In this document: positions 2,162 to 19,263 of the stretch, in pieces
Layout: each line of letters opens with the position of its first letter
Position numbering within the stretch: position 1 is the stretch's first letter
From: Candidatus Aerophobota bacterium
Lineage (GTDB): Bacteria > Aerophobota > Aerophobia > Aerophobales > AE-B3A
DNA: 36,856 nt
Direction of reading: 5' to 3'
NCBI GenBank assembly: GCA_030616535.1
Contig: JAUWXE010000003.1
Span: 1 to 36,856, forward strand
The notes under the pieces: generated by a model
Seen by the model: the letters and a program-made list of their open reading frames with translations, nothing else
The model's database searches: none
Told to the model about the DNA's origin: nothing
Program-made: the position numbers and the translations under genes

Positions 2162-2274
2162 TATCAACCAGTTAACCGTCCTCGACAAAAAATAAAAATA
2201 TGTTAACATATAAAATAGATTATGATATTATTCTTTCGTGGCGCAAGGATGTATATGAGAAAAAGGAGAGATCG

Positions 2275-3006
2275 GTGCCAAGGAAAGTCCTTAAAGACTC
2301 CAAGATTCCTTTATATCATCAGATAAGGGAGGATTTACGAGCCCGCATAGAGGAAGGAGAATGGCTTTCAGGGGAGCTTATTCCTGCAGAAAAGGAACTA
2401 TGTGCCGAATATAAGGTGAGCAAAATAACGGTCTTAGAGGCAATAAAGGGCCTTGTAAGAGAGGGACTGCTTTACCGAAAACAGGGCAAAGGAACATTTA
2501 TGGCTAAACCTAAGCTAGAGCAAAGTCTTAATAGGTTTTATAGTTTCACTGAAAGTATGCGGCAAAAAGGACTCGAACCAGAACAGAGGATATTAAAAGT
2601 AAAGTTTACTGAGGCTGACAAGCATTCTGCAAAACATCTTAGGATTAGAAAGGGAGAGAAGATCACTGAAATAGAAAGATTAAGATTAGTGAATGGCGAA
2701 CCCTTCTACCTAGAAACAATTATGATTCCAGTTAAGTTATGCCCTAATTTACACCTAAAAGACATTAGCTCCAAACCCCTGAATGATATATTAAGGAATG
2801 AATATAAGATACCTTTAATTAGAGCAAAAGAGTGCTTCGAGCCAATTATTGTCGACAGTTACGAAGCTCAAATGCTCGGCGTAAAGGATGGCGCACCTGC
2901 CCTGCTGCTAGAACACACTACTTATACCACGAAAAACCAGACAGTACTTTTCAGCAAGGGAATAATTAGAGGAGATCGGTGTAGGTATTATACCGAGCTT
3001 GAATAA
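2275..3006 (+). CDS. GntR-family (HutC subfamily, UTRA domain) transcriptional regulator
   Basis: 'IPLYHQIREDLRARIEEGEW..GELIPAEKELCAEYKVSKITVLEAIKGLVREGLLYRKQGKGTFM' wHTH plus UTRA-like C-terminus; GTG start at 2275 preceded by AAGGAGAG. Confidence 0.85.
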   Translation: MPRKVLKDSKIPLYHQIREDLRARIEEGEWLSGELIPAEKELCAEYKVSKITVLEAIKGLVREGLLYRKQGKGTFMAKPKLEQSLNRFYSFTESMRQKGLEPEQRILKVKFTEADKHSAKHLRIRKGEKITEIERLRLVNGEPFYLETIMIPVKLCPNLHLKDISSKPLNDILRNEYKIPLIRAKECFEPIIVDSYEAQMLGVKDGAPALLLEHTTYTTKNQTVLFSKGIIRGDRCRYYTELE

Positions 3007-3277: not shown

Positions 3278-3532
3278 ATGATGCATTTAGAGAGAAAAGA
3301 TAAGGTGGATATCTCTGACCAAATCGGAGCATGTACGGATTTTATGCCTAGGACCCGCAATGAAAGTATCTATGATGCTATTACCGCTGCGTATAGGGCA
3401 GAATTTGCAGGACTTGAGTTATTTCCTACAAAGGATCAGGCTGTCATGTTACATGAAAGTCTGTTGAGGAGATTAATTCTCCAAGCTAGGAGGTGCACAC
3501 AATGGGCTTCCAAATTCATGCAGGTGAGGTAA
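3278..3532 (+). pseudogene. Possible N-terminal remnant of a sugar phosphate isomerase/epimerase-like TIM barrel
   Basis: 'IGACTDFMPRTRNESIYDAITAAYRAEFAGLELFPT' resembles the first beta-alpha unit of xylose-isomerase-like proteins; only 84 aa and overlaps the start of the next gene. Confidence 0.35.
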
Positions 3533-5517
3533 GTATATTTTTCGATAGGCAGGCTAAGCCCGCTAAAATTAAGTTATTTGGTCAATCCTTTAATCAGCCA
3601 GCACATATAGTGTCCTATGGTCTATGGGGGAAAAAGGCCAAAGTAAGGAGAATTGCCTCAAAGAAAGAAGGAAAACTTACTGCTTATTTAGAAGTGGAAG
3701 AGAAAGAAGCTGTTTTTCGCGCAGAAACATCAAGGAATGGAATTAAATTAGCCCTTAGGAGCCTTACAGATGATAGAAGCTGTTATGCCCACCTCACTCT
3801 TTTCTTTCCAGAAGAATTAAAAATTTACTTTCCTGGGACTCCGGTGGGTTTCACCTCTGGAATGAGTGCTCGATTGTTTGATAGGAGAATGCCTGTTGGT
3901 TCTACCTTTGCAACTCCCGAAACCGAACATGGCTCTAAAGGGCTTTCCCATCAGTTAATTTTGGTAGAATCTGATCGAGGCTGTCTTTGTTTAACGAATC
4001 GATCTGATTTAAGGGAAGTCTTCTCCTTGGATGTGAGAGGTTTAGCTTATCCTAGGATTAAAATTAGCCGATCTGTAGAAGGTTTCTCTTTTACCTACTA
4101 TTGGCCGTCTGCGGTTCCTCTTTTCCTACGGTCTTTTCCCTCCTTACAAGAAGCTGTCAGGGACTACAAGCAGTGGATGGAAAATACGTTCAATCTCATT
4201 CCACTCGAGCAAAACTCTGGCCTGCCAGATTGGTTTTTCAACACCAAGCTGATTATAACCTTGGATATGTGGCGGTCAAATGGGCAAATAGCCCACAACT
4301 ATCAACATCTAATAGATCTTTGCAAGGACATGCGAAAAGCAAGGGCTCCTAAAGATACCTTATTCTACCTTCCTGGATGGAATTATAAGTACGATGCACA
4401 TTATCCAGAGTATTCCCCCACTCCAGAGCTTGGTGGTCCTAAAAAATTCAAGCAGATGGTGGATACGGCTCATGAGTGTGGATATCGAATTATGGTTCAT
4501 ACCATGCCATGTGGAGTGGATCCTTACCTACCTCAATTTGAAATTACGAAAAAGTGGGTTAAAAAAGGGCACATTTTTGCCAATTACGCTGGCTGGCCAG
4601 GAGGCTCTAAAGTCTTAAAATATGACTGGGAAGGTAAAAAAGAACAAATTTCCGGTACAATGGTCGATAATTCCATTCTTTTTCCGACGATTACTATCCC
4701 TGAAAAGTGTGAGGCTAAGTTGGTTATAGGGGGTTTAAGTGGTTTTGGAGGACAAATCAAGATTACAGTTGGTGAGCGAAGGCTAGAATCACCTCCTCAA
4801 TGGTTCATGAAAAATGACTCTTACACCTTTCCTTTTCCCTTCTTCTTCAAAGCCGGGACTAACCAAGTTCACCTGAAATTTACAGAAGCGGAGTTAACCA
4901 AAGATATGAATATCTGGTATCAGATTGTAGATTGTTTCCATTTTGCTCCTATCTGGACCTATCCCTTTGTAGGTACTGAGCTGAGTAACCCAGAATGGGC
5001 AAGTTACTTTACTGGAAGAGTATCTTCTTTGGTTCAGCAATTTGACATAGACGCCGTTCACCTTGATGCTCACATTTTAGGAGGAACCTCTTGGGAAGGA
5101 ACGGAACTTTTTAACCAGTTGCGGAAACAGATTCCAAAAACGGTATTTAGTTGCGAGGTCTTTGATGAGCCCGCTATGAGTTTTTTCTCTCTCATACAAA
5201 ATGGAGAAATTCTAACCAACAAAGAATTAAATGAATGGCGCAATCAATATACCCCTATTTTTTCCAACTTGATTTTAGACTATGTAAAGCTGTATCCGCA
5301 TTTATGTGTTCCGGAAGGATTAGTCCCAGTAGCAAAAGTATGCAATATAGAGAAGCCACCAACTGAGGTAAGTGAAGAACAACGAAAGCGAATCAGAGAA
5401 GTTGTAATGAATGCCGGAAAATACGGTGTTATCCCCAATCTAAGGTTGAATTACAAAGATTATGGTTTGGATCAGGAAACTAAACAAGTTATAGCGCAAT
5501 TGGTCGCCTCATTCTAA
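3502..5517 (+). CDS. Putative glycoside hydrolase (TIM barrel, DUF6259-like) with an internal beta-rich insertion
   Basis: 671 aa; 'DTLFYLPGWNYKYDAHYPEYSPTPELGGPKKFKQMVDTAHECGYRIMVHTMP', 'DIDAVHLDAH', 'VFSCEVFDEPA'; ATG at 3502 with AGGAGGTG just upstream. Confidence 0.6.
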   Translation: MGFQIHAGEVSIFFDRQAKPAKIKLFGQSFNQPAHIVSYGLWGKKAKVRRIASKKEGKLTAYLEVEEKEAVFRAETSRNGIKLALRSLTDDRSCYAHLTLFFPEELKIYFPGTPVGFTSGMSARLFDRRMPVGSTFATPETEHGSKGLSHQLILVESDRGCLCLTNRSDLREVFSLDVRGLAYPRIKISRSVEGFSFTYYWPSAVPLFLRSFPSLQEAVRDYKQWMENTFNLIPLEQNSGLPDWFFNTKLIITLDMWRSNGQIAHNYQHLIDLCKDMRKARAPKDTLFYLPGWNYKYDAHYPEYSPTPELGGPKKFKQMVDTAHECGYRIMVHTMPCGVDPYLPQFEITKKWVKKGHIFANYAGWPGGSKVLKYDWEGKKEQISGTMVDNSILFPTITIPEKCEAKLVIGGLSGFGGQIKITVGERRLESPPQWFMKNDSYTFPFPFFFKAGTNQVHLKFTEAELTKDMNIWYQIVDCFHFAPIWTYPFVGTELSNPEWASYFTGRVSSLVQQFDIDAVHLDAHILGGTSWEGTELFNQLRKQIPKTVFSCEVFDEPAMSFFSLIQNGEILTNKELNEWRNQYTPIFSNLILDYVKLYPHLCVPEGLVPVAKVCNIEKPPTEVSEEQRKRIREVVMNAGKYGVIPNLRLNYKDYGLDQETKQVIAQLVASF

Positions 5518-5708
5518 GACACGTTCAGCTATAGCCAACGAGTTTCGTCTTTAGTTATGGCAGAGTTTTGCATTGTGTAACGTTAATGGCGTTTAGTTGA
5601 AATATAAGAAGGGACAAAAGGGGTCTTTGTCCTCTATTAATAATTTTTTATCCGAGGTGGTTCCCTTTTACTTTGTTACAGTGAGCCCTTTTGGGATTGA
5701 TATTCACA

Positions 5709-5850
5709 GGCCGGAGGGAGGTGAGAGAGCAAATATGGCCATTAGCTGAGAAATAAAAGAAGGTTTTCCAAAAAGAGAAGTGTCGAAAAATTAATTTCTC
5801 TTTTTGGGAGCTTTCCACAAAAAATGAACGATGTCTGCTGAACAGGGAGG
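5709..5850 (+). promoter_or_regulatory. Conserved leader element, copy A (upstream of GH36 gene)
   Basis: About three quarters identical by eye over ~142 nt to 8093-8235; perfect 12-bp inverted repeat CCAAAAAGAGAA (5768-5779) / TTCTCTTTTTGG (5796-5807). Confidence 0.7.
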
Positions 5851-5897
5851 AAAAAAGAATTTTCGAGTGAACTAATAATGTGACTGAGGAGGTGATG

Positions 5898-7931
5898 ATG
5901 GTTAACAATGTACTAACTAATAGGAATGCAGGAAAGAGGATAGGGGATTTTTTCCGAGAGATGAACGTCGATAACCCGTTTTGCGAAGGACTGGCTGAAA
6001 CATTCGGTTTCGGGTTGGGATACGACAGGGTTAAACACGAAGAATGTTTCCAGGATCTCAAACTTCATGCTGTTTCAAACCGGGGATCTAAGCAGATTAC
6101 AGAACAGGTTTGGAGAAATAGTACAGAATGTCTGGAAATCAGAGTTGAATACGAGCTCTTTCCAGAGCACAATGCGTTGAAATATCAGGGACGCATTCAC
6201 AATATCGGTGATAAACCCATACCACGAGTAAAAGATCTACACACGGTGCAATGGGGCTTTCCTGTTTCTACTATTGGACCACCCACAATCCACGGAGCGG
6301 GCGGAGGGATGAAGGATAACTTTTACCCACCCCCCTCATATCGTAGGTTTGATACCACCTTAGTTGAGTCGCGTTATGGTGATGGATTGATCGTTGGCTC
6401 AAGGTTGGGGCGATCCTCCAATGCATACCTTCCTTTCTTCGTTGTGAGCAATGGTGCTGATTCGCACGGGATCTTTTTTGCCCTTGGTTGGTCAGGAAAC
6501 TGGAAGGCAAAATTCCAATTGCATGAGACCAACCAGAACTCGCAACAGTTTCTTATTAAGGCATGGTTACCCGCGGTTGATCTGATGCTCATGTCTGGGG
6601 AGGAAATACCAATCCCGGAGGTTTTAATAGGCTTATATGATGGATCTGCTCTTAATGGAATGAATGCACTGCGTCGAACCATTTACGAGAGGTATGTTCC
6701 CTTACTGGCGGGCAAGAAAGTTGTTCCTTTAACTGGATTTGGTAGCTGGTTCGCTTACAATGGTATAGTTGGTGCTCCCAGAATTAATGAGCACAGCCTA
6801 AAAAAACAGGTAGATACGGCCGCAGAGATAGGCTGCGAGTACTTTGAGGTTGACGACGGTTGGGAGGTTGGCTGGCAGGAGGGTCTAGGATTCAATGAGC
6901 GAAGAATGGATTGGGTAGCCGATGAGGCGAAATTCCCTTTCGGTCTTGATAAATTTGCAAAGTATGTTGAAGACAAAGGGATGAAGTTTGGTCTCTGGCT
7001 TGATCTTGCTCGAACCACTCGACGATCCAATTTGCTCCAGGAACATCCTGAATGGGTGATCTGGTCAGAAAAGGATCCAGATAGAGGCCTTGTTAACTTC
7101 GGTCTGTCACAGGTTCGTGAGTGGGCAAAAGGTATTTTTAGTGAACTGGTTGAAAAGTACCATATGCAGTGGGTAAGAAACGATTACAACGTGGATCCCG
7201 AGTTCCAATGGACCAAATATGATCCTCCAGAGCGTAAGGGCATAACAGAGATCAGACACATAGAAGGTCTCTATGAGGTTATGGAGTGGGTTCTGAAGAA
7301 TTATCCCTCGTTGTGCGTTGAGCAGTGTGCAAGCGGAGGACGGATGATAGATTTGGGGACTCTCCGCCGAGCACATATGGTTTTTGTCAGTGATCACACA
7401 ATCAGCGCGGATATCTGTCGGTATCATCTCTCAGGGGCTAGCTGTTTCTTGCCATCCATACTGCTCCATACTGATCTTTCTCACCATACTGAGGCGTACC
7501 CCGATGTGTTCTACCTGAGCCGCTTCGGTGGTGCTTTAGGCATTGGTGATGACATTGCAAGATGGTCTCCGGTTTTGCAAGAGAAGGCTAAAAAGATGAT
7601 AGGTATATATAAATTGATCCGACATTTTCTTGCAGGTGATTTCTATCCGGTGTTCTCCCAACCTGTTTCGATAAGGGAATGGGATGGTTGGCAGTTCCAC
7701 GATCCCTCTTCTGATTCAGGCATAGTAGTAGTGTTTAGGGTGCAGAGCACACAGGCACAGAAACTGGTTAAGCTATCTGCACTCGATCGTCACAAGAGCT
7801 ATTCGTTGACTAACCTACTTATCAGTCAAGAAACGGTAGTTTCCGGCCAGACACTTCAGGACGAAGGTTTTGCAATTAGTCTTGAATGTGGTGAAGCGGA
7901 AATTTGGCGCTATCAGCCGTCCACGGGATGA
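5898..7931 (+). CDS. GH36-type alpha-galactosidase (melibiase family)
   Basis: 'YFEVDDGWEVGWQEG', 'GMKFGLWLDLARTTRRSNLLQEHPEWV', candidate nucleophile region 'WVRNDYNVD', 'CASGGRMIDLGTLRRAHMVFVSDHTISADICRYH'; GAGGAGGTG SD. Confidence 0.85.
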   Translation: MVNNVLTNRNAGKRIGDFFREMNVDNPFCEGLAETFGFGLGYDRVKHEECFQDLKLHAVSNRGSKQITEQVWRNSTECLEIRVEYELFPEHNALKYQGRIHNIGDKPIPRVKDLHTVQWGFPVSTIGPPTIHGAGGGMKDNFYPPPSYRRFDTTLVESRYGDGLIVGSRLGRSSNAYLPFFVVSNGADSHGIFFALGWSGNWKAKFQLHETNQNSQQFLIKAWLPAVDLMLMSGEEIPIPEVLIGLYDGSALNGMNALRRTIYERYVPLLAGKKVVPLTGFGSWFAYNGIVGAPRINEHSLKKQVDTAAEIGCEYFEVDDGWEVGWQEGLGFNERRMDWVADEAKFPFGLDKFAKYVEDKGMKFGLWLDLARTTRRSNLLQEHPEWVIWSEKDPDRGLVNFGLSQVREWAKGIFSELVEKYHMQWVRNDYNVDPEFQWTKYDPPERKGITEIRHIEGLYEVMEWVLKNYPSLCVEQCASGGRMIDLGTLRRAHMVFVSDHTISADICRYHLSGASCFLPSILLHTDLSHHTEAYPDVFYLSRFGGALGIGDDIARWSPVLQEKAKKMIGIYKLIRHFLAGDFYPVFSQPVSIREWDGWQFHDPSSDSGIVVVFRVQSTQAQKLVKLSALDRHKSYSLTNLLISQETVVSGQTLQDEGFAISLECGEAEIWRYQPSTG

Positions 7932-8092
7932 GTCATATCTATTAACGATCAGATTAGATGAACCTCAAGTGAATTGGTGTGAGGCTTTCGTGCATAATCT
8001 AGTGAAAGGCGATGAAGGTGAAACTAAATCCCAGAGAAAAAATAGGCAAAAATATTGCTTTCCCACTGTCTAGTTTGAAGGAATAAAAATAA

Positions 8093-8235
8093 GGCCGGGG
8101 AGGAGGTGTGAAGTGGGTTAGGCCTTTAGCTGAGGCAAAGAAAAGCTTTCCAAAAAGAGGAGTGTCGAAAGATTAATTTCTCTTTTTGAGGGCTTTCAGG
8201 GAAAAATGAACCAGGTCTGCAAAAAATAAAGGAGG
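8093..8235 (+). promoter_or_regulatory. Conserved leader element, copy B (upstream of ABC binding-protein gene)
   Basis: Counterpart of 5709-5850; hairpin CAAAAAGAGGA (8151-8161) / TTCTCTTTTTG (8178-8188) with one G.U, plus outer AAAGC/GCTTT; ends at the SD of the gene at 8243. Confidence 0.7.
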
Positions 8236-8242
8236 TAACAAA

Positions 8243-9520
8243 ATGTTGCATAAGTCTATTGGTGTCCAAGCAATAGGGATATTCATAATATCTCTGCTTA
8301 TTTGCTCCAGCGCAAGTGCTGTGAAAATTACCGTTTGGGATCAATACACCGCACCTGATATGTCACCTGCTGTGGACAAGTTGAATGCTCTTTTCGAAAA
8401 AGCAAATCCTGATATTCAAATTGAGAGAGTGGCGATGAGCGGAGAAGATATGAGGAAAGTTCTTAAGACCGCTTTGTTGGCAGGAGAAAAGCTGGATGTT
8501 GTTTACACTGAGGTTGGTCCGGGTCATATGGGTTTGCTTGCGCGAGCTGGTCTGTTGATTGATTTGACAGAGGTGTATGAGCGATATGGATGGACTGAAC
8601 GGGTGTATGAATTTCCAAGAACCATAGCGACATTTGATGGAAAAATTTGGGGAATTGGAAATGAATTAGAGTATTTAACAACCTACTACAACAAAGATGT
8701 ATTCCAGGAACTAGGACTTGAGATACCCAATAGTTATGAAGAATTGATCTGGATTTGTGAAAAGCTCAAATCTAAGGGATATATTCCATTTGGTTTCGCA
8801 AGTAAAGACTATTGGACTTCTGTGCATCCCTTTGCCGTTTTTGTAAACCTTCTGATTCCTAAAGATGAGTTGGATGAAATTCTCCTCGAAAAGGACAAAT
8901 GGGATCATCCTGGTTTGGCTCGAGCACTCGAGATATGGTCTATCGAGTTTCCGCAAAAGGGATACTTTTCAAAAGACTTTCAAGCCTTAGGTTACAACGA
9001 CGGAAATATGCTTTTTTATACTGAAAAAGCACCTATGCGTCTTACTGGAACATGGCTACTTGGAGATATCATGGAAAATGTGAAAACTTTCGAACCCAGT
9101 AGTTTCTTATTCCCCCAAATCAAAAAAGATATACCGGTTCGAGTCCCTATGGTGTGTGGTTCTGGCTACTGTGTTCCAAAAGCAACTCTGTATCCTGAAG
9201 AATGTTTCAAATATCTAGATTTCTTACTGTCCGACGAAGCTGGTAAAATATGGATAGAAGAAGCCAAACTTGTTCCACCTTTTCCTGTGAGCCTTGAAGG
9301 TCTTGAATTAGCTCCTTTACAAAAGGACGTAATACGGTCACTTTTCGAAATTGATGGTGGTCACTTTATTGATATTTACAGTACAGCAAGATGGTGGAAC
9401 GAACTCTGTTCCTTGATGCAGGGAATTTATGCTGGCAAAGAAACAGTAGACGGAACTATTAACAAGCTGAATAGGATATGGAAAGAAGAACGAGAAAAAG
9501 GACTTTTGAGATCTAGATAA
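8243..9520 (+). CDS. ABC transporter extracellular solute-binding protein, family 1 (CUT1 sugar type)
   Basis: N-terminal signal peptide; 'VKITVWDQYTAPDMSPAVDKLNALFEKANPDIQIERV', 'YNKDVFQELGLEIPNSYEELIWICEKLKSKGYIPFGFAS'; followed by MalF/MalG-like permeases. Confidence 0.9.
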   Translation: MLHKSIGVQAIGIFIISLLICSSASAVKITVWDQYTAPDMSPAVDKLNALFEKANPDIQIERVAMSGEDMRKVLKTALLAGEKLDVVYTEVGPGHMGLLARAGLLIDLTEVYERYGWTERVYEFPRTIATFDGKIWGIGNELEYLTTYYNKDVFQELGLEIPNSYEELIWICEKLKSKGYIPFGFASKDYWTSVHPFAVFVNLLIPKDELDEILLEKDKWDHPGLARALEIWSIEFPQKGYFSKDFQALGYNDGNMLFYTEKAPMRLTGTWLLGDIMENVKTFEPSSFLFPQIKKDIPVRVPMVCGSGYCVPKATLYPEECFKYLDFLLSDEAGKIWIEEAKLVPPFPVSLEGLELAPLQKDVIRSLFEIDGGHFIDIYSTARWWNELCSLMQGIYAGKETVDGTINKLNRIWKEEREKGLLRSR

Positions 9521-11596: not shown

Positions 11597-13150
11597 GTGT
11601 ACTTTCTGGGATTAGATGTGGGAACTTCTGTGGTCAAAGGTGCAATTTTTACCGAGAAAGGTCAGCCGGTAGCGTTAAACCGATTAGAATACCAATTAAA
11701 TTACCCTCATCCAGGATGGATTGAAATTGATCCCGATCTTGTTTGGGATAAAGTTAAAAAGCTGATTTCAGAGTTAGTCGGGAGCAGCAATGTTAAACCT
11801 GCGGAAATTGTAAGTATTTGTCCTTCTGTTCTGGGAGAAGCTATTGTTCCCATAAACAAGAAGGGAAAACCTCTCTATAACTTCATAGAAGGATGGGATG
11901 GAAGGGGAAACTACTACGAAGAAGAAATATCGTTTCTGGAAGAAAAGATTGGGAGATATAAAATCTACGACATATCTGGCGTTACTTTATCTTCACTGGC
12001 TTCTATCCATAAAATACTCTGGTTAATAAAGCATAAACCAGAAATCTACGAGAAAACTTTCAAATTTCTTTTTATGGAAGACTTCATTATTGCTAAACTG
12101 ATCGGTGAATATTTTGTAAACTATTCTTTGGCTTGCCGTTCTATGCTTTTTGACAGGGTAGAGAAAAAATGGTCGGAAGAAATTCTTGGGGAAGCCGCTC
12201 TTAGTCCAGACCTTTTTTCATTACCTGTACCCTCAGGAACAATAGTTGGATCAGTGGCGGAGTTTGTTGCCAGCGAGCTTGGATTGAGCGAGAAAACCAA
12301 AGTGGTCACAGGAGGCCATGATCAATGTTGTGCTGCTTTAGGAGTAGGGATAATTTCAGAAGGTCCGGCTTTTAACGGGATGGGGACGGTGGAGGTAATA
12401 GCTGGAGTTACCGAAAGGCCGAGATTAGAGCATCACCTTTCAGATAGTAATATCGCCAATTATTGTCATGTATTAAAAGATAAGTATCTTCTTTTGGGCG
12501 TCAACCCGACTTTTGGCATGGCGTTGAAATGGTTTAAGGATGTATTTGTAAAAGGAAGAAATTCTATTGAGAACAGAGAGGGTAGAGGCATTTACGAGAT
12601 TATCATCGAGGAAGCCGAACAATCTTCACCGGGAGCTAAGGGTTTATTCTTTCTTCCTCATCTTCAGGGAACTTTTTCTGGAAGTTTTCAAGCTCTCAAC
12701 CCAAACTCTAGAGCTGCCTTCATAGGTCTTAGGTCCTTTCATAAGATTGGTGATATGGTGAGGGCTATCCTGGAAGGTGTATGTTTTGAAACTAGAAATC
12801 TCATAATTGAGATGGAGAAAGTCTTAGAAATTACCGATTTGAGAGTGTCTGGTGGACCTACTAATTCAGATTTATGGATGAAGATTAAGGCCGATATTTC
12901 TCAAAAGAAGCTGTTGGTTCCCGAAAAAAGTGAGGCTGGATTGATAGGAACACTAATTTTATCCACTATAGCTACCGGTGTTTATAAGGATACCGAAGAG
13001 GCTATATTGAGTATTTTTAAAGTGAAAAGATCTATAACACCAGAAGAAAAAATTGGGGTATTTTACACTTCTCGGTTTAATATCTTCAAAAAAATATATC
13101 CAACTTTATTTGAAATCTACGAACAGATGGGTTCTCTGAATAATCGATAA
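11597..13150 (+). CDS. FGGY-family carbohydrate kinase (xylulokinase-like)
   Basis: 'YFLGLDVGTSVVKGAIF', 'VTGGHDQCCAALGVGI', 'RVSGGPTNSDLWMKIKADIS'; GTG start with TAGGAGGA SD. Confidence 0.9.
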   Translation: MYFLGLDVGTSVVKGAIFTEKGQPVALNRLEYQLNYPHPGWIEIDPDLVWDKVKKLISELVGSSNVKPAEIVSICPSVLGEAIVPINKKGKPLYNFIEGWDGRGNYYEEEISFLEEKIGRYKIYDISGVTLSSLASIHKILWLIKHKPEIYEKTFKFLFMEDFIIAKLIGEYFVNYSLACRSMLFDRVEKKWSEEILGEAALSPDLFSLPVPSGTIVGSVAEFVASELGLSEKTKVVTGGHDQCCAALGVGIISEGPAFNGMGTVEVIAGVTERPRLEHHLSDSNIANYCHVLKDKYLLLGVNPTFGMALKWFKDVFVKGRNSIENREGRGIYEIIIEEAEQSSPGAKGLFFLPHLQGTFSGSFQALNPNSRAAFIGLRSFHKIGDMVRAILEGVCFETRNLIIEMEKVLEITDLRVSGGPTNSDLWMKIKADISQKKLLVPEKSEAGLIGTLILSTIATGVYKDTEEAILSIFKVKRSITPEEKIGVFYTSRFNIFKKIYPTLFEIYEQMGSLNNR

Positions 13151-13156
13151 GGAGAA

Positions 13157-13174
13157 AATGAGATATATCTCATT
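13157..13174. repeat. 18-bp perfect palindrome in kinase/RLP intergenic spacer
   Basis: AATGAGATATATCTCATT is its own reverse complement. Confidence 0.7.
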
Positions 13175-13228
13175 ATTAACCAAAAATACATGTTCCCATT
13201 GGGGACATTGCAAAGGATGGAGAAAAAA

Positions 13229-14587
13229 ATGGAAGCAACATATGATCCTTTAGTTTTCAACAGTGAGTATGAAAGTGTCCATAAAGAAAAGTTTATTATC
13301 GCTACATATTATGTGGAACACAAAGCGGAAGGTGAGATTTTGGACCATTTGAATGTTATCCAGCCTATGCTGCTACAGGGTTCTACCGGGACCTGGCAAA
13401 AAATTCCTGAAGATACTGCAAAAATAAGAGAACTTTTTACCCCTAAGGTCATCGGATATTATCCTGTTCCCACCGAAAGCGAAAACCATAAGAAGGCGAT
13501 TGTAAATATGGCCTTACATACAGAATCTTTCTCTCACAATTTTCCCATGTTGTTGATAGCTATAGCCGGAAATATTCTTTTCTTTCCTGGAGTAATTAAA
13601 TTGGTGGGTATTCATTTTCCTAAAAGCTTTTGCCAGGAGTTCACCGGACCCAAATTTGGTATCTCTGGCATCCGAAAACTCTTAGGAGTTCCTGAAAGAC
13701 CCTTCGTATTAACCATCATTAAACCCAAAATGGGCATGACACCGCAAGAAACTGCAGAACAGGCATACAAAGCTGCAATCGGGGGATCGGATATGGTTAA
13801 AGATGATGAGATGTGTAGCGAGACCTTTAACTGTTCCTTTAAAGATCGAGTCAGGATGGTTAGCCAGGCATTGAAAAGAGCTTATGAGGAGAACGGGCAA
13901 AAGACTCTCTACTTTGTGAGTATCACTGACAGACCCAGTAAGATGAAGCACAAAGCCAAACTAGCTATAGAAATGGGGGCTGGCGGCCTTCTGGTGGGCT
14001 TTACCGCTGGTTACTCTGTCATTCGAGATCTAGCTAAGGATTCGGATATTAACGTACCCATACTTATGCATCCTACCAGTGTAGCTTCCCAGACTTCAGT
14101 CTTTAGATTCCCTGTTATCTGTAAGCTAGCACGATTGGCCGGTGCTGACTTAGTGCTCAATGCTACCCGCTGGGCTACTTTGCCCTTTGTATCTTTAGAG
14201 GATGGCGTAAGAGCTAATCAAATCCTGCAGGCTCCTATGTATCATATTAATCCATCTCTTTCTGCTCCCAGTGGAGGAATGCACCCTGGTCTGGTTCCTG
14301 AATTAGTGAAAGAATGTGGTCCCGATATTTTTATTCCTGCAGGAGGAGGTATTCACGGTCATCCTAAAGGTACAACCGCTGGAGCAAAAGCTATGCGACA
14401 GGCTATTGAGGCTACTATGAGAGAAATATCACTGGAAGAAGCCTCTAAGGCTCCGGATAACCGAGAGCTGAAAGATGCAGTGGAGAAATTTGGAATCTTT
14501 CATCGTCCCACCACTAGATGGTTTAGAACAGTTTCAGAGTGGGAGAATAAAACTTCTATATTGACAGGTTACGATTACAGTAAGTAA
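13229..14587 (+). CDS. RuBisCO-like protein (form IV type, RuBisCO large-subunit superfamily)
   Basis: 'FVLTIIKPKMGM', 'GGSDMVKDDEMCSETF', 'ILMHPTSVASQ', 'SAPSGGMHPGLVPELV', 'IPAGGGIHGHPKGTTAGAKAMRQAIEA'. Start uncertain: ATG 13229 has GGAG upstream; the ORF runs from 13190. Confidence 0.93.
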   Translation: MEATYDPLVFNSEYESVHKEKFIIATYYVEHKAEGEILDHLNVIQPMLLQGSTGTWQKIPEDTAKIRELFTPKVIGYYPVPTESENHKKAIVNMALHTESFSHNFPMLLIAIAGNILFFPGVIKLVGIHFPKSFCQEFTGPKFGISGIRKLLGVPERPFVLTIIKPKMGMTPQETAEQAYKAAIGGSDMVKDDEMCSETFNCSFKDRVRMVSQALKRAYEENGQKTLYFVSITDRPSKMKHKAKLAIEMGAGGLLVGFTAGYSVIRDLAKDSDINVPILMHPTSVASQTSVFRFPVICKLARLAGADLVLNATRWATLPFVSLEDGVRANQILQAPMYHINPSLSAPSGGMHPGLVPELVKECGPDIFIPAGGGIHGHPKGTTAGAKAMRQAIEATMREISLEEASKAPDNRELKDAVEKFGIFHRPTTRWFRTVSEWENKTSILTGYDYSK

Positions 14588-14619
14588 AAACATAATTTAT
14601 TGCACAAGGAGGGACGAAA

Positions 14620-15603
14620 ATGAGAAAAATTAAGTTCTCGGCTGGTTTAGCAGCATTTGGAAATGGAATCGACCGCTATGTAAACTTGGGATACAAAGAA
14701 AGTGTAACTGTTGAAAAAATGATTGAATTGGCTGGTGCTGTAGAAGACCTGGAGGGTGTTGAACTTGTAGAAAACTGGCATGTTAATAAAAATAATTTAA
14801 ATGCGATCAAAGAATGTTTAGAAAAATATAGGTTTAAAGTATCAATGGTCATTCCAGATCTTTGGGCAACTAAGAAATGGGCTATGGGAAGTCTAAGTGC
14901 AAAGGATGCAAAAACAAGGGAGGAGGCTAAGGAAACTATTATTAATGCTATAGAAATGGCTAAGAGGATTGATTGTGATTTAATCGATGTTTGGTTTGGC
15001 CAGGACGGATGGGATTACTCCTTTGAGGTTGACTATCTCCAATCCTGGCAATTTTTAGTAGAGGGATTGAGGGAAGTTGCTGATTATGACGCCGGTATAA
15101 GAATTGGGATAGAGCATAAAATTAAAGAGCCGCGATGCTTTGCTCATGTAGGCTCCATTGGGAAACTTATGCTCCTTATCAAAGAAGTAGAAAGACCCAA
15201 TATAGGAGTAGTATGTGATTTTGGCCACTGTTTTGAGGGTTATGAGAATCTGGGACAGGTACTGGCTCTAATGAAACATTATGGGGTAAAACTGTTTCAT
15301 ACTCACTTCAATGATAACTATCGTCTATGGGATGACGATCTGATTTCTTGTTCTGTACATACCATTGAATACATTGAAGCTTTCTATTGGTTACAAAAGG
15401 TAGATTACCAGGGTTGGTACTCCCTTGATATTTTCCCCTTCCGTATTGATAGCATCAAAGCTGCTACGGAAAGCATAAAATGGATAAAAGCTCTGGCAGG
15501 AGTGGTAGATAAAGTTGGAGTTGATAAGATTGATGAGGTCATCAAAGATGGCGATGCCTGTGATGCTCAGAAGCTCATTCGAGAGGCAATATTTGGCTTT
15601 TAG
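14620..15603 (+). CDS. Xylose isomerase-like TIM-barrel protein (sugar phosphate isomerase/epimerase superfamily)
   Basis: 'GIRIGIEHKIKEPR', 'IGVVCDFGHCFEGYEN', 'KLFHTHFNDNY', 'GWYSLDIFPFR'; AGGAGGG SD. Confidence 0.85.
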   Translation: MRKIKFSAGLAAFGNGIDRYVNLGYKESVTVEKMIELAGAVEDLEGVELVENWHVNKNNLNAIKECLEKYRFKVSMVIPDLWATKKWAMGSLSAKDAKTREEAKETIINAIEMAKRIDCDLIDVWFGQDGWDYSFEVDYLQSWQFLVEGLREVADYDAGIRIGIEHKIKEPRCFAHVGSIGKLMLLIKEVERPNIGVVCDFGHCFEGYENLGQVLALMKHYGVKLFHTHFNDNYRLWDDDLISCSVHTIEYIEAFYWLQKVDYQGWYSLDIFPFRIDSIKAATESIKWIKALAGVVDKVGVDKIDEVIKDGDACDAQKLIREAIFGF

Positions 15604-15674
15604 ATAAGGTTTTCTACGATATCCTTTACAAAAATGAATTTGAAAGGTTTGCACTACATTTCATAGGAGGCTAC

Positions 15675-16640
15675 ATGGAAAAAAGGCTACCAAGAGAGAA
15701 ATTGATTGAAATGTATAGGAAAATGTTAAGGATTAGACACTTTGAAGATAGAATTTACCGACTCTTCTTAAGCGGGACTATGCCAGGGACTATTCATCTT
15801 TCCCAGGGACAGGAGGCAATAGCAGTAGGAGTATGTGCCAATCTCAGTAAGGATGACATAATTACCGGCACCCATCGATCTCATGGTGAAGCTCTGGCTA
15901 AAGGTGTTTCTATGAAATCATTGATGGCCGAACTCTTTGCTCGGTCTAACGGTTGTTGCAAGGGGAAAGGCGGCTCGATGCATGTGGGTGATATTGATGT
16001 AGGAATGCTTCCGGCTATAGCTATAGTGGGAGGAGGAATTCCTGTGGCTACCGGTATAGCACTGGCCTTTAAGATGAAAAGATTAGATCGGGTAGCCGTT
16101 TCCTTCTTCGGAGACGGAGCTTCCAATGAAGGTGCTTTCCATGAGGCGATCAATATGGGAGCTATTTGGGATCTACCCGTCATCTATGTTTGTGAGAACA
16201 ACCTCTATGGAGCCTCTACTCATGTTAGCAAGGTAATGAAGTTAAAAGATATCGCTAATCGAGCTTTCTCTTACGGGATACCGGGGGTGGTGGTGGACGG
16301 CAATGATGTAGTGGCGGTATATGAGGTAGCAAGGAAGGCTATAGATAGAGCAAGGAAAGGTGAGGGTCCAACGTTAATTGAGTGCAAGACCTACCACATA
16401 GGAGGTCATTCTCGTTCTGATCCCAGGCAATATAGAGATAAGGAAGAAGAAAAGAGGTGGCTGGCCAAGGATCCCATCCCCAGAATGAAAAAGAAATTGA
16501 TTGCGACGAATATTTTGAGCTCAGAAAAATCAGAGAATATAGAGGCCGCAATTGAAAAAGAAATAGACGAGGCTATAAAATTTGCCCAGAGTAGTCCCTC
16601 GCCGAAACCAGAAGATGCTCTAAGGGATGTATTTGCTTAA
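15675..16640 (+). CDS. ThDP-dependent 2-oxoacid/acetoin dehydrogenase E1 component, alpha subunit
   Basis: 'HLSQGQEAIAVGV', 'THRSHGEALAKGV', ThDP motif 'GDGASNEGAFHEAINMGAIWDLPVIYVCENNLYG'. Confidence 0.93.
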   Translation: MEKRLPREKLIEMYRKMLRIRHFEDRIYRLFLSGTMPGTIHLSQGQEAIAVGVCANLSKDDIITGTHRSHGEALAKGVSMKSLMAELFARSNGCCKGKGGSMHVGDIDVGMLPAIAIVGGGIPVATGIALAFKMKRLDRVAVSFFGDGASNEGAFHEAINMGAIWDLPVIYVCENNLYGASTHVSKVMKLKDIANRAFSYGIPGVVVDGNDVVAVYEVARKAIDRARKGEGPTLIECKTYHIGGHSRSDPRQYRDKEEEKRWLAKDPIPRMKKKLIATNILSSEKSENIEAAIEKEIDEAIKFAQSSPSPKPEDALRDVFA

Positions 16641-16656
16641 AGTTAAGGAGAATAAA

Positions 16657-17670
16657 TTGAGAAATTTAACTGTAGCGGAAGCTTTAAGAGAAGCGATAAG
16701 AGAAGAGATGAGGAGGGACGAGTCAGTCTTTTGTATTGGAGAGGATATAGGTATCAAAGGAGGCTGGGGAGGGGCTTTTACCGTTACTCTTGGGTTGTCG
16801 GAAGAATTTGGACACGAAAGGATTCTAGATACCCCCATCTCGGAGCTTGGTATAGCTGGTATAGCTGTAGGGGCAGCTCTTGCTGGAATGAGACCCATAG
16901 CCGATGTAGAATACGGAGATTTTATCTTCTTGGCCATGGATCAGCTCATAAATAATGCAGCTAAACTCCGATATATGTCAGCCGGCAAGTTAAAGGTTCC
17001 TATGGTTATGCGAATTCCCGTAGGAGCTTCAGGCAGAGGAGCCCAACATGCTCAATCCCTAGAGTCTTATTTTGTTCATGTTCCTGGACTCAAAGTTGTC
17101 TGTCCTTCTAATGCCTATGATGCCAAAGGACTTCTAAAAACAGCTATAAGGGACGATAATCCCGTAATGTTCTTTGAACACAAGCTTCTATACGGCGCTA
17201 AAGGAAGAAGGGAAGGTATAGATGCTCGAGGAGAAGTACCGGAAGAAGAGTATTTACTTCCTTTCGGAGTAGCTGAGATAAAAAGAGAGGGAGAGGATGT
17301 AACAGTAGTGGCCACCTTAAGAATGGTTTACGCAGCGTTATCGGCCGCTGAGGAACTGGAAAAAAGGGGGATAAGCGTGGAAGTGATAGATCCTCGAACT
17401 CTCACTCCTTTGGATTTAGAAACGATTTTAAAATCTGTTCATAAAACAAATAGGTTGATTATTGTTCATGAGGATAATTTAACTGGGGGATGGGGAGCAG
17501 AGTTAGCCACTCGGGTAACTAGTGAAGCTTTTGACTGGCTAGATGTTCCTGTAACGCGGATTGCTGCCCCAGATACCCCTGTTCCCTTTGCTCCCATAAT
17601 GGAAAATTATTTTGTCCCGAACAGTGAAGATATAGTTAGAACTGCAGCGAGTGTATTGGGTAAAAGTTAA
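16657..17670 (+). CDS. ThDP-dependent 2-oxoacid/acetoin dehydrogenase E1 component, beta subunit
   Basis: 'VFCIGEDIGIKGGWGGAF', 'DTPISELGIAGIAVGAALAGMRPIADVEYGDFIF', 'GRGAQHAQSLESYFVHVPGLKVVCPS'; TTG start at 16657 after AAGGAG. Confidence 0.92.
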   Translation: MRNLTVAEALREAIREEMRRDESVFCIGEDIGIKGGWGGAFTVTLGLSEEFGHERILDTPISELGIAGIAVGAALAGMRPIADVEYGDFIFLAMDQLINNAAKLRYMSAGKLKVPMVMRIPVGASGRGAQHAQSLESYFVHVPGLKVVCPSNAYDAKGLLKTAIRDDNPVMFFEHKLLYGAKGRREGIDARGEVPEEEYLLPFGVAEIKREGEDVTVVATLRMVYAALSAAEELEKRGISVEVIDPRTLTPLDLETILKSVHKTNRLIIVHEDNLTGGWGAELATRVTSEAFDWLDVPVTRIAAPDTPVPFAPIMENYFVPNSEDIVRTAASVLGKS

Positions 17671-17701
17671 AGATCACAATATAAAATTAAGGAATTGCAA
17701 A

Positions 17702-18610
17702 ATGGCACTTATCCCAATGAAAAAAATGTTAGTGAAGGCCCAAAAGGAAAGATACGCAGTAGGGTACTTTGAGTCTTGGAATTTGGAGTCTCTGCAGGCA
17801 ATTATTAATGCAGCAGAAGAGGTGTGCTCATCAGTAATCGTTGGATTCAGCGGTAGATTCTTAGCCGAGCCGGGCAGGTTAATGCCCGAAAAAATCGAAT
17901 ATTACGCTTCCATGGGAAAGGTGTTCGGTGAAAACACCTCGGTCCCAACAGCCTTAATTTTGAATGAAGCGTCTGATTTTGCATGGATCGAAAAGGCCAT
18001 AGAACTTGGCTTTACCGCTGTAATGTTTGAGGATGAATCATTGTCTGCCGTAAAAGAGGTGAATTTTATTAAAAAGGCAGTTAAAATAGCTCATTCAAAA
18101 GGTGTTTCTGTAGAAGCTCAATTGGGAATTTTGCCAGTAGCAGAAAAAAGAGGAGTCACCGAGGAGATAGCAAAAGATATTTCTTTAACCGATCCCGAAA
18201 AAGCTGCTCAATTTGTAAAAGAAACTGGTATTGATGCCCTGTCGATTTCTGTCGGCAATATTCACTCTTTAACCAAAGGTAAGGCGGAAATTGATTTTGA
18301 TAGGCTTAAACACATTAGAGAAGTGGTAGATATACCCTTAGTTTTACATGGAGGAACAGGACTTGCAGATGATACCGCGAGAAGAGCAATCAAATTAGGA
18401 ATATGTAAAATCAATATTGGAGCTTTACTTAAACAGACTTTCATTAAGGGGATAAAAAAGAAGCTTGGTACTTACTTTAACGGCTATTCAGACCCCCATG
18501 AATTTTTAGGATCAGGCAAAGAAAGGGATATATTAATGGCTGGTGCGCTAGAGATGAGGGATGTAATTAAAGAAAAAATGAAAGTTTACGGCTCATCTGG
18601 CAGAGCATAA
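17702..18610 (+). CDS. Class II fructose-bisphosphate aldolase-family protein with atypical active site
   Basis: 'YAVGYFESWNLESLQAIINAAEE', 'VSVEAQLG', 'PLVLHGGTGLADDTARRAIKLGICKINIG'; ATG at 17702. Confidence 0.85.
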   Translation: MALIPMKKMLVKAQKERYAVGYFESWNLESLQAIINAAEEVCSSVIVGFSGRFLAEPGRLMPEKIEYYASMGKVFGENTSVPTALILNEASDFAWIEKAIELGFTAVMFEDESLSAVKEVNFIKKAVKIAHSKGVSVEAQLGILPVAEKRGVTEEIAKDISLTDPEKAAQFVKETGIDALSISVGNIHSLTKGKAEIDFDRLKHIREVVDIPLVLHGGTGLADDTARRAIKLGICKINIGALLKQTFIKGIKKKLGTYFNGYSDPHEFLGSGKERDILMAGALEMRDVIKEKMKVYGSSGRA

Positions 18611-18636
18611 TAAACATAGATATAAAATGAGGATAG

Positions 18637-19263
18637 ATGAAAATGAAGATGAGAGCAGCTATTTATCACGGGATTCAGGATGTGAGATTGGAAGAAGTAG
18701 AAATTCCTCAGATTAACTCTGATGAAGTATTAGTGAAAATAAAGGTGGCTTTAACTTGTGGTACGGATCGGAAGATGTACCTCAGAGGTTATCATCTAGT
18801 TAATCCTCCCTTTGTTTTTGGCCATGAATTTGCTGGAGATATCGTAAAGGTGGGAGCTAATGTAAGAAATTTCGAAGAAGGTATGAGAGTAGTAGCAGCA
18901 AATTCTGCACCCTGCAATAAATGTTTTTACTGTAAGATAGGTAGGGAAAGTTTATGTAAAGATCTAACCTTCAGACTTAACGGTGCCTTTGCTGAATATG
19001 TAAAAATCCCTAGAGATATCGTAGAACAGAATTTACTGGAAATTCCGTGCAACATCTTTTACAAAGAGGCAGCTCTGGTAGAACCCTTGGCCTGCGTTGT
19101 ACACGGGATACAAGAGTCAAACATAAGGCTAGCCCAACTTCCACATTTTCAAAAAAAATGTGGTGTTTATGGTGGTTTGCGAGTTCATTCAGTCACTATA
19201 TTTGAAGAGTGCCATGTTTTTATGGGTTTCATAACCTCGGAGGGAATACCAAGATTCTTATAG
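18637..19263 (+). pseudogene. Truncated zinc-dependent alcohol dehydrogenase (MDR), N-terminal catalytic domain only
   Basis: 'ALTCGTDRKMYLRG', 'FGHEFAGDIVKVG', 'CNKCFYCKIGRESLC', 'ALVEPLACVVHGIQESNI', then loss of homology with no Rossmann GxGxxG domain. Confidence 0.8.

Follow-up and report, generated by a model that had tools for sequence, protein, structure and literature searches.

Leaders bound by CsrA carry GGA in hairpin loops and lie in the 5′ UTRs of metabolic genes. The motif named Dictyoglomi-1 is said to be a covarying RNA that was recovered by comparative genomics from a limited taxonomic group. Cis-regulatory candidate RNAs, this motif among them, were reported by Weinberg et al. 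2010 (PMC2864571). Two further systems act at the ribosome: the STAB-SD in the 5′ mRNA of Bacillus thuringiensis cry3A, where 30S binding stabilises the mRNA by blocking RNase J1 and which is associated with an abundantly made protein (PMC4113751), and the standby site of tisB, a structured region some 100 nt 5′ of the ribosome-binding site that is proposed to load 30S and S1 (PMC7708055).

The leaders described here, copies A and B, lie in a window of 36,856 nt (the whole stretch of DNA that was analysed) from a genome bin of 1.08 Mb that is 81 % complete. That the two copies represent an undescribed 5′-UTR RNA that acts in cis and is confined to one small bacterial phylum is well supported as regards both the RNA family and its position in cis. 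They share with STAB-SD (PMC4113751) an SD-like 5′-UTR sequence that pairs with 16S rRNA and has no translation start, although STAB-SD is short, lies near the 5′ end and blocks RNase J1, whereas the leader SD is set within a covarying two-hairpin RNA found before dozens of genes. A structured 5′ region proposed for 30S/S1 loading is the point of likeness to tisB (PMC7708055); tisB, however, has a pseudoknot and a single-stranded region with its ribosome-binding site sequestered, whereas the leader has an extended SD, and neither a conserved anti-SD nor conserved sequestration of the gene's own ribosome-binding site was seen in the family alignment. From candidates of the Dictyoglomi-1 type the leader differs in matching no Rfam model and in its clear cis position and gene association. 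GGA motifs within a 5′-UTR hairpin loop recall the CsrA-bound leaders, but a CsrA target was rejected because PF02599 was found in none of 17 genomes of the phylum, with positive controls.

Two leader copies in a sugar-gene region

Copy A was located on the forward strand at 5690–5838 (covariance model R1, 132.6 bits, E 2.3e-24; copy A is itself in the seed alignment of the covariance model, and homologues from other genomes are not), 5′ of a GH36/melibiase-like gene at 5880–7931 (+; Pfam Melibiase, 6.5e-34) for which the ATG at 5895 is the likelier start. Copy B, at 8077–8220 (+; R1, 138.7 bits, E 1.4e-25), lies 5′ of a gene for an ABC sugar substrate-binding protein (8243–9520, +; SBP_bac_1, Pfam 4.9e-24), which has the SD AGGAGG and an ATG 22 nt past the element. 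An earlier note, made from the sequence by eye, had described a closely repeated leader and placed copy A at 5709–5850; the repeat is borne out by a direct-repeat scan, which returned one 97-nt family of two copies (5755–5851 and 8137–8233, 79 % identity, 2382 nt spacing), and the element stands, with a boundary that the covariance model sets slightly more 5′.

The family consensus consists of two hairpins and a tail. P1 is formed by AGCUAA/UUAGCU and GGCC/GGCC and encloses a loop of about 23 nt with the extended Shine–Dalgarno sequence GGAGGUGA; the long hairpin P2 has two parts, approximately GGAAAGCUUUC/GGGAGCUUUCC and AAAAGAGAA/UUCUCUUUU, and the loop GYGUURAAWRAUUA; and the tail that follows reads UGAACnAnGUC. 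In most copies the outer P1 stem reads AGCUAA/UUAGCU; A and B have it in degenerate form, with the inner stem intact in both. In copy A the inner helix pairs GGCC at 5709–5712 with GGCC at 5737–5740 (+; helix 2, double changes in 4 of 4 pairs, 88 % of cells paired) around the extended, apparently non-initiating SD GGAGGTGA at 5717–5724 (+), which 129 of the 143 aligned copies match with at most one mismatch and 87 exactly. The P2 hairpin of copy A (5759–5815, +; helices 3–5) has the outer strands GAAGGTTTTCC/GGGAGCTTTC and the inner strands AAAAAGAGAA/TTCTCTTTTT, and its conserved 16-nt apical loop GTGTCGAAAAATTAAT (5780–5795, +) is flanked by the perfect 12-bp stem that had been noted, CCAAAAAGAGAA (5768–5779) with TTCTCTTTTTGG (5796–5807); in copy B this stem is imperfect, one pair being G-U. 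The conserved tail of copy A, TGAACGATGTC, lies at 5825–5835 (+). The corresponding parts of copy B are the P1 inner helix at 8093–8124 (+; GGCC 8093–8096 with GGCC 8121–8124, the SD-like GGAGGTGT at 8102–8109 in its loop), the P2 hairpin at 8140–8197 (+; loop GTGTCGAAAGATTAAT at 8162–8177) and the tail TGAACCAGGTC at 8207–8217 (+). Both conserved blocks described in the earlier note, GGCC...TTAGCTGAG upstream and AAAATGAAC.A.GTCTGC downstream, are present in A and B. Unconstrained folding of the single window sequences recovered P2 and missed P1.

The surrounding region contains an ISNCY-type transposase fragment near its beginning (1595–2095) and, between a GntR-UTRA regulator (2200–3006) and copy A, a gene for a DUF6259 protein of 674 aa that is a putative glycoside hydrolase-like protein (3493–5517); no leader copy was found before the latter. 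Farther downstream, the operon at 11597–19263 encodes an FGGY sugar kinase, a RuBisCO-like protein, a TIM-barrel isomerase, E1 dehydrogenase alpha and beta subunits, a class II aldolase and an ADH fragment. The RuBisCO-like protein falls under the cut-offs of DK-MTP enolase and OiaX, and the operon as a whole is probably an unusual catabolic pathway for a sugar or sugar acid.

Covariation, distribution and gene context

In an alignment of 101 sequences, 26 of the 27 proposed pairs are changed on both sides and 89.5 % of cells are paired. Cells with double changes number 240, as against 82±7 after shuffling and no more than 69 with the partners slid; since the structure guided this alignment, the counts are biased in its favour, but the seven seed sequences are a small minority in it. 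Many of the proposed helix pairs also stand near the top when all column pairs of this alignment are ranked by mutual information. Helices 3–5 of P2 show 89–92 % of cells paired in the family alignment, with double changes in 16 of 17 pairs, and one pair within the P2 loop (columns 92–99) is A-U in one loop type and U-A in the other. Several copies (L085, L082, L077 and L129) have P2 reduced to a stub, and most of these still precede typical genes. A long-range pairing of GGCC with GGUC of the tail, which appears in some single-sequence folds, finds no support among the top covarying columns. The covariation in homologues agrees with the view in the earlier note that the stretch looks like a structured RNA or a regulator target and not a simple terminator; no terminator-like site was seen in the sense strand of A or B. 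On its compensatory changes and on its position and orientation alike, the element is a structured cis-regulatory leader RNA.

When copy A was used as a DNA query, blast found about 18 related copies (E<0.01) in two genomes of the genus. A first covariance model built from seven copies found 2–28 copies per genome in all nine genomes of the family that were searched, and matches were obtained in 16 of 17 genomes of the phylum (a sample of a single order, 7 families and 12 genera), giving 143 aligned copies with a maximum of 28 per genome. G011 is the sole phylum genome examined that has no match. A second model, from 101 copies, was run on 385 genomes and was again positive in the same 16 of the phylum and in none of the 368 outside it, a scan that scored the eight best candidate places per genome and that weak distant relatives could escape. 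The entire window gave no match to Rfam 15 at the gathering threshold, and in E-value mode the leader region and eight homologous loci gave only chance-level miRNA or sRNA matches below threshold. The suggestion of a candidate new cis-regulatory RNA is upheld by a structured, covarying leader with no Rfam match.

An ORF on the same strand begins within 250 nt downstream in 133 of the 143 copies, at a median gap of 22 nt, and in 118 of these 133 the gap is at most 70 nt. Exact TTGACA boxes are in excess in the 160 nt upstream (34, with 6.3 expected), and the 27 that lie 41–80 nt from the element place it in the 5′ UTR, soon after the start of transcription; many copies lie a few tens of nt past a sigma-A-like promoter. 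For A and B themselves no TTGACA-type promoter was recognised. Upstream of many copies, L111, L129 and L042 among them, a conserved block runs from promoter to element (TTGACA-N15-17-TAAYAAT...GUUAGAUCUUU), and a 5′ hairpin (P0) may form there and compete with P1.

The genes that follow the leader have a common function in the cell and diverse substrates. About 88 of the 121 distinct downstream proteins scanned (73 %, counted over non-overlapping families) are substrate-binding proteins, and these fall into six or more Pfam families (SBP_bac_1/8, SBP_bac_5, Peripla_BP_4, Peripla_BP_6, DctP and TctC), whose substrates are sugars, peptides, branched-chain amino acids, C4-dicarboxylates (TRAP) and tricarboxylates. 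Of the downstream proteins, 106 of 133 have a signal-like N-terminus, as against 5 of 60 upstream-gene controls, and a comparison of two lists for one genome (G001) indicates that about 20 of its 41 SBP_bac_1 genes have the leader. The remaining downstream proteins include GroES, short-chain dehydrogenases, AFOR, a carbamoyltransferase and a sulfatase. The clearest non-transport target is groES of one genome, with the leader at L096:1501–1650 and the gene at 1703. Elsewhere, two complete tandem leaders (L095:1285–1436 and L095:1501–1647, minus strand) precede one binding-protein gene, and in L035/L027 a second P2-like hairpin follows a full leader copy. The link to galactosides and to sugars of the neighbouring pathway, which had been proposed in the earlier note, does not hold, since leaders precede unrelated families of binding proteins, GroES and a few enzymes; the leaders go with exported binding proteins as a group, and a single sugar ligand is for the same reason unlikely.

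The loop Shine–Dalgarno sequence and its possible roles

The most conserved part of the leader is the extended SD GGAGGUGA in the P1 loop. It is complementary to the 3′ end of 16S rRNA, whose sequence GGATCACCTCCTTT was confirmed in the window genome (G000) at the end of the Rfam SSU match. The duplex predicted between the anti-SD and the 5′ 60 nt of the leader has a median of −17.7 kcal/mol, compared with −9.5 for shuffled sequences; the value for the genes' own ribosome-binding sites is −11.1 kcal/mol, computed over a shorter stretch of 20 nt. Predicted accessibility is moderately greater for the loop SD (0.63) than for the rest of the leader (0.51). Start codons at an initiating distance after it are depleted (17, with 58.9±6.3 expected), and a leader peptide translated from this site was rejected on that ground; from these sequence features the loop SD appears to be conserved for a purpose other than initiation. 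An upstream ORF from the AUGAAC of the tail was likewise rejected as non-coding, since its third codon is often CAT, AAT or GAT but also TAG, and the frames vary.

The reading that we prefer, with a probability of roughly 0.4, is that the leader is a cis-acting 5′-UTR module that docks the 30S subunit where no initiation takes place, so as to stabilise the message or hold the ribosome on standby. A 30S subunit would dock on GGAGGUGA in the loop with no initiation there, and in the manner of STAB-SD or a standby site it might then protect the message, pass ribosomes to the gene's own, weaker ribosome-binding site, or both; P2 and the tail could provide structural insulation or be bound by S1 or some other factor. 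The conserved P2 loop and tail are, however, more elaborate than simple docking needs. The leader has an extended SD without a start, as STAB-SD does, and departs from the exact mechanism of STAB-SD in the matter of the RNase J block: full-length RNase J (TIGR00649) was above the cut-off in none of the 17 phylum genomes, two partial weak matches being found, so that stabilisation would need to act against a different nuclease. The leader may shield the message from another nuclease or supply 30S subunits from standby, and it probably tunes the retention or the translation strength of the downstream messages. A more tentative proposal, to which we give less credence, is that throughout the phylum the folded leader captures ribosomes by offering them a non-initiating SD, an inherited 30S-docking module that would raise the expression of exported nutrient-binding proteins generally, whatever their substrate.

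There are two main rivals to 30S docking. The first, which we think unlikely but deserving of attention, is a riboswitch-like sensor: all the uptake genes would be switched together by one shared signal, such as a metabolite that reports starvation or energy status. The complex conserved loop and tail are aptamer-like and tandem copies exist (L095), although no expression platform in the form of a conserved terminator or anti-SD was seen and the unrelated substrates handled by the targets suggest no ligand. Perhaps, in a variant of this sensor, AGCUAA is exchanged between P1 and an upstream UUAGAUCUUU hairpin (P0): a 5′ block GUUAGAUC (at most two mismatches) that can pair with the 5′ strand of P1 is present in 48 copies, with a mean folding z of −1.6, but P0 is found in only about one-third of copies and changes in P1 are not always followed by P0 (L058).

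The second main rival is a dedicated global RNA-binding protein, a translational regulator or stabiliser, that would read the P2 loop GYGUURAAWRAUUA and the tail UGAACnAnGUC. Strong conservation of loops and tail in sequence, besides the stems, is what such a protein would lead one to expect, as is the A-U/U-A swap between the two loop types; however, the copies in which P2 is a stub mostly precede typical genes, and the classical candidates are missing, with CsrA absent as described above and Hfq present in 1 of the 17 phylum genomes. We consider this reading a rather poor prospect. Hfq-based regulation was rejected on this lack of Hfq in 16 of 17 genomes, which also tells against a trans-acting small RNA that pairs with the leader loops, which are conserved and predicted to be partly open; compensatory changes in long helices would not be required for such a target, and we regard it as highly improbable. 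Equally improbable is a DNA operator for a transcription factor, for although the helices are inverted repeats in DNA too, the element lies downstream of TTGACA promoters in one fixed orientation, extends over about 145 nt, and shows asymmetric loops as well as G-U pairs among its substitutions. That the element is a dispersed repeat of the mobile or REP/MITE-like kind and regulates nothing, as the occurrence of as many as 28 copies per genome and the transposase fragment at 1595–2095 might suggest, is rejected on its fixed orientation and distance from the start codon, on compensatory changes across seven families of the phylum, and on its placement before unrelated genes that share one functional class, barring the case that gene duplication has produced the position, orientation and covariation as artefacts.

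Implications for nutrient-binding protein expression

The leader represents an unlisted RNA family with more than 140 examples in a single poorly studied phylum, and its association is with a functional class, the substrate-binding proteins, and not with one ligand or pathway. Its setting is one of genomes in which CsrA and Hfq, the usual global RNA regulators, are mostly or wholly undetected; with full-length RNase J likewise not found, post-transcriptional control in the phylum must use other factors. The loop SD offers a testable idea, a non-initiating ribosome site inside a conserved fold. In many bacteria the binding protein is made in large excess over the permease, and a dedicated 5′-UTR module would, if this is true, explain in a new way how the binding protein comes to outnumber its permease.
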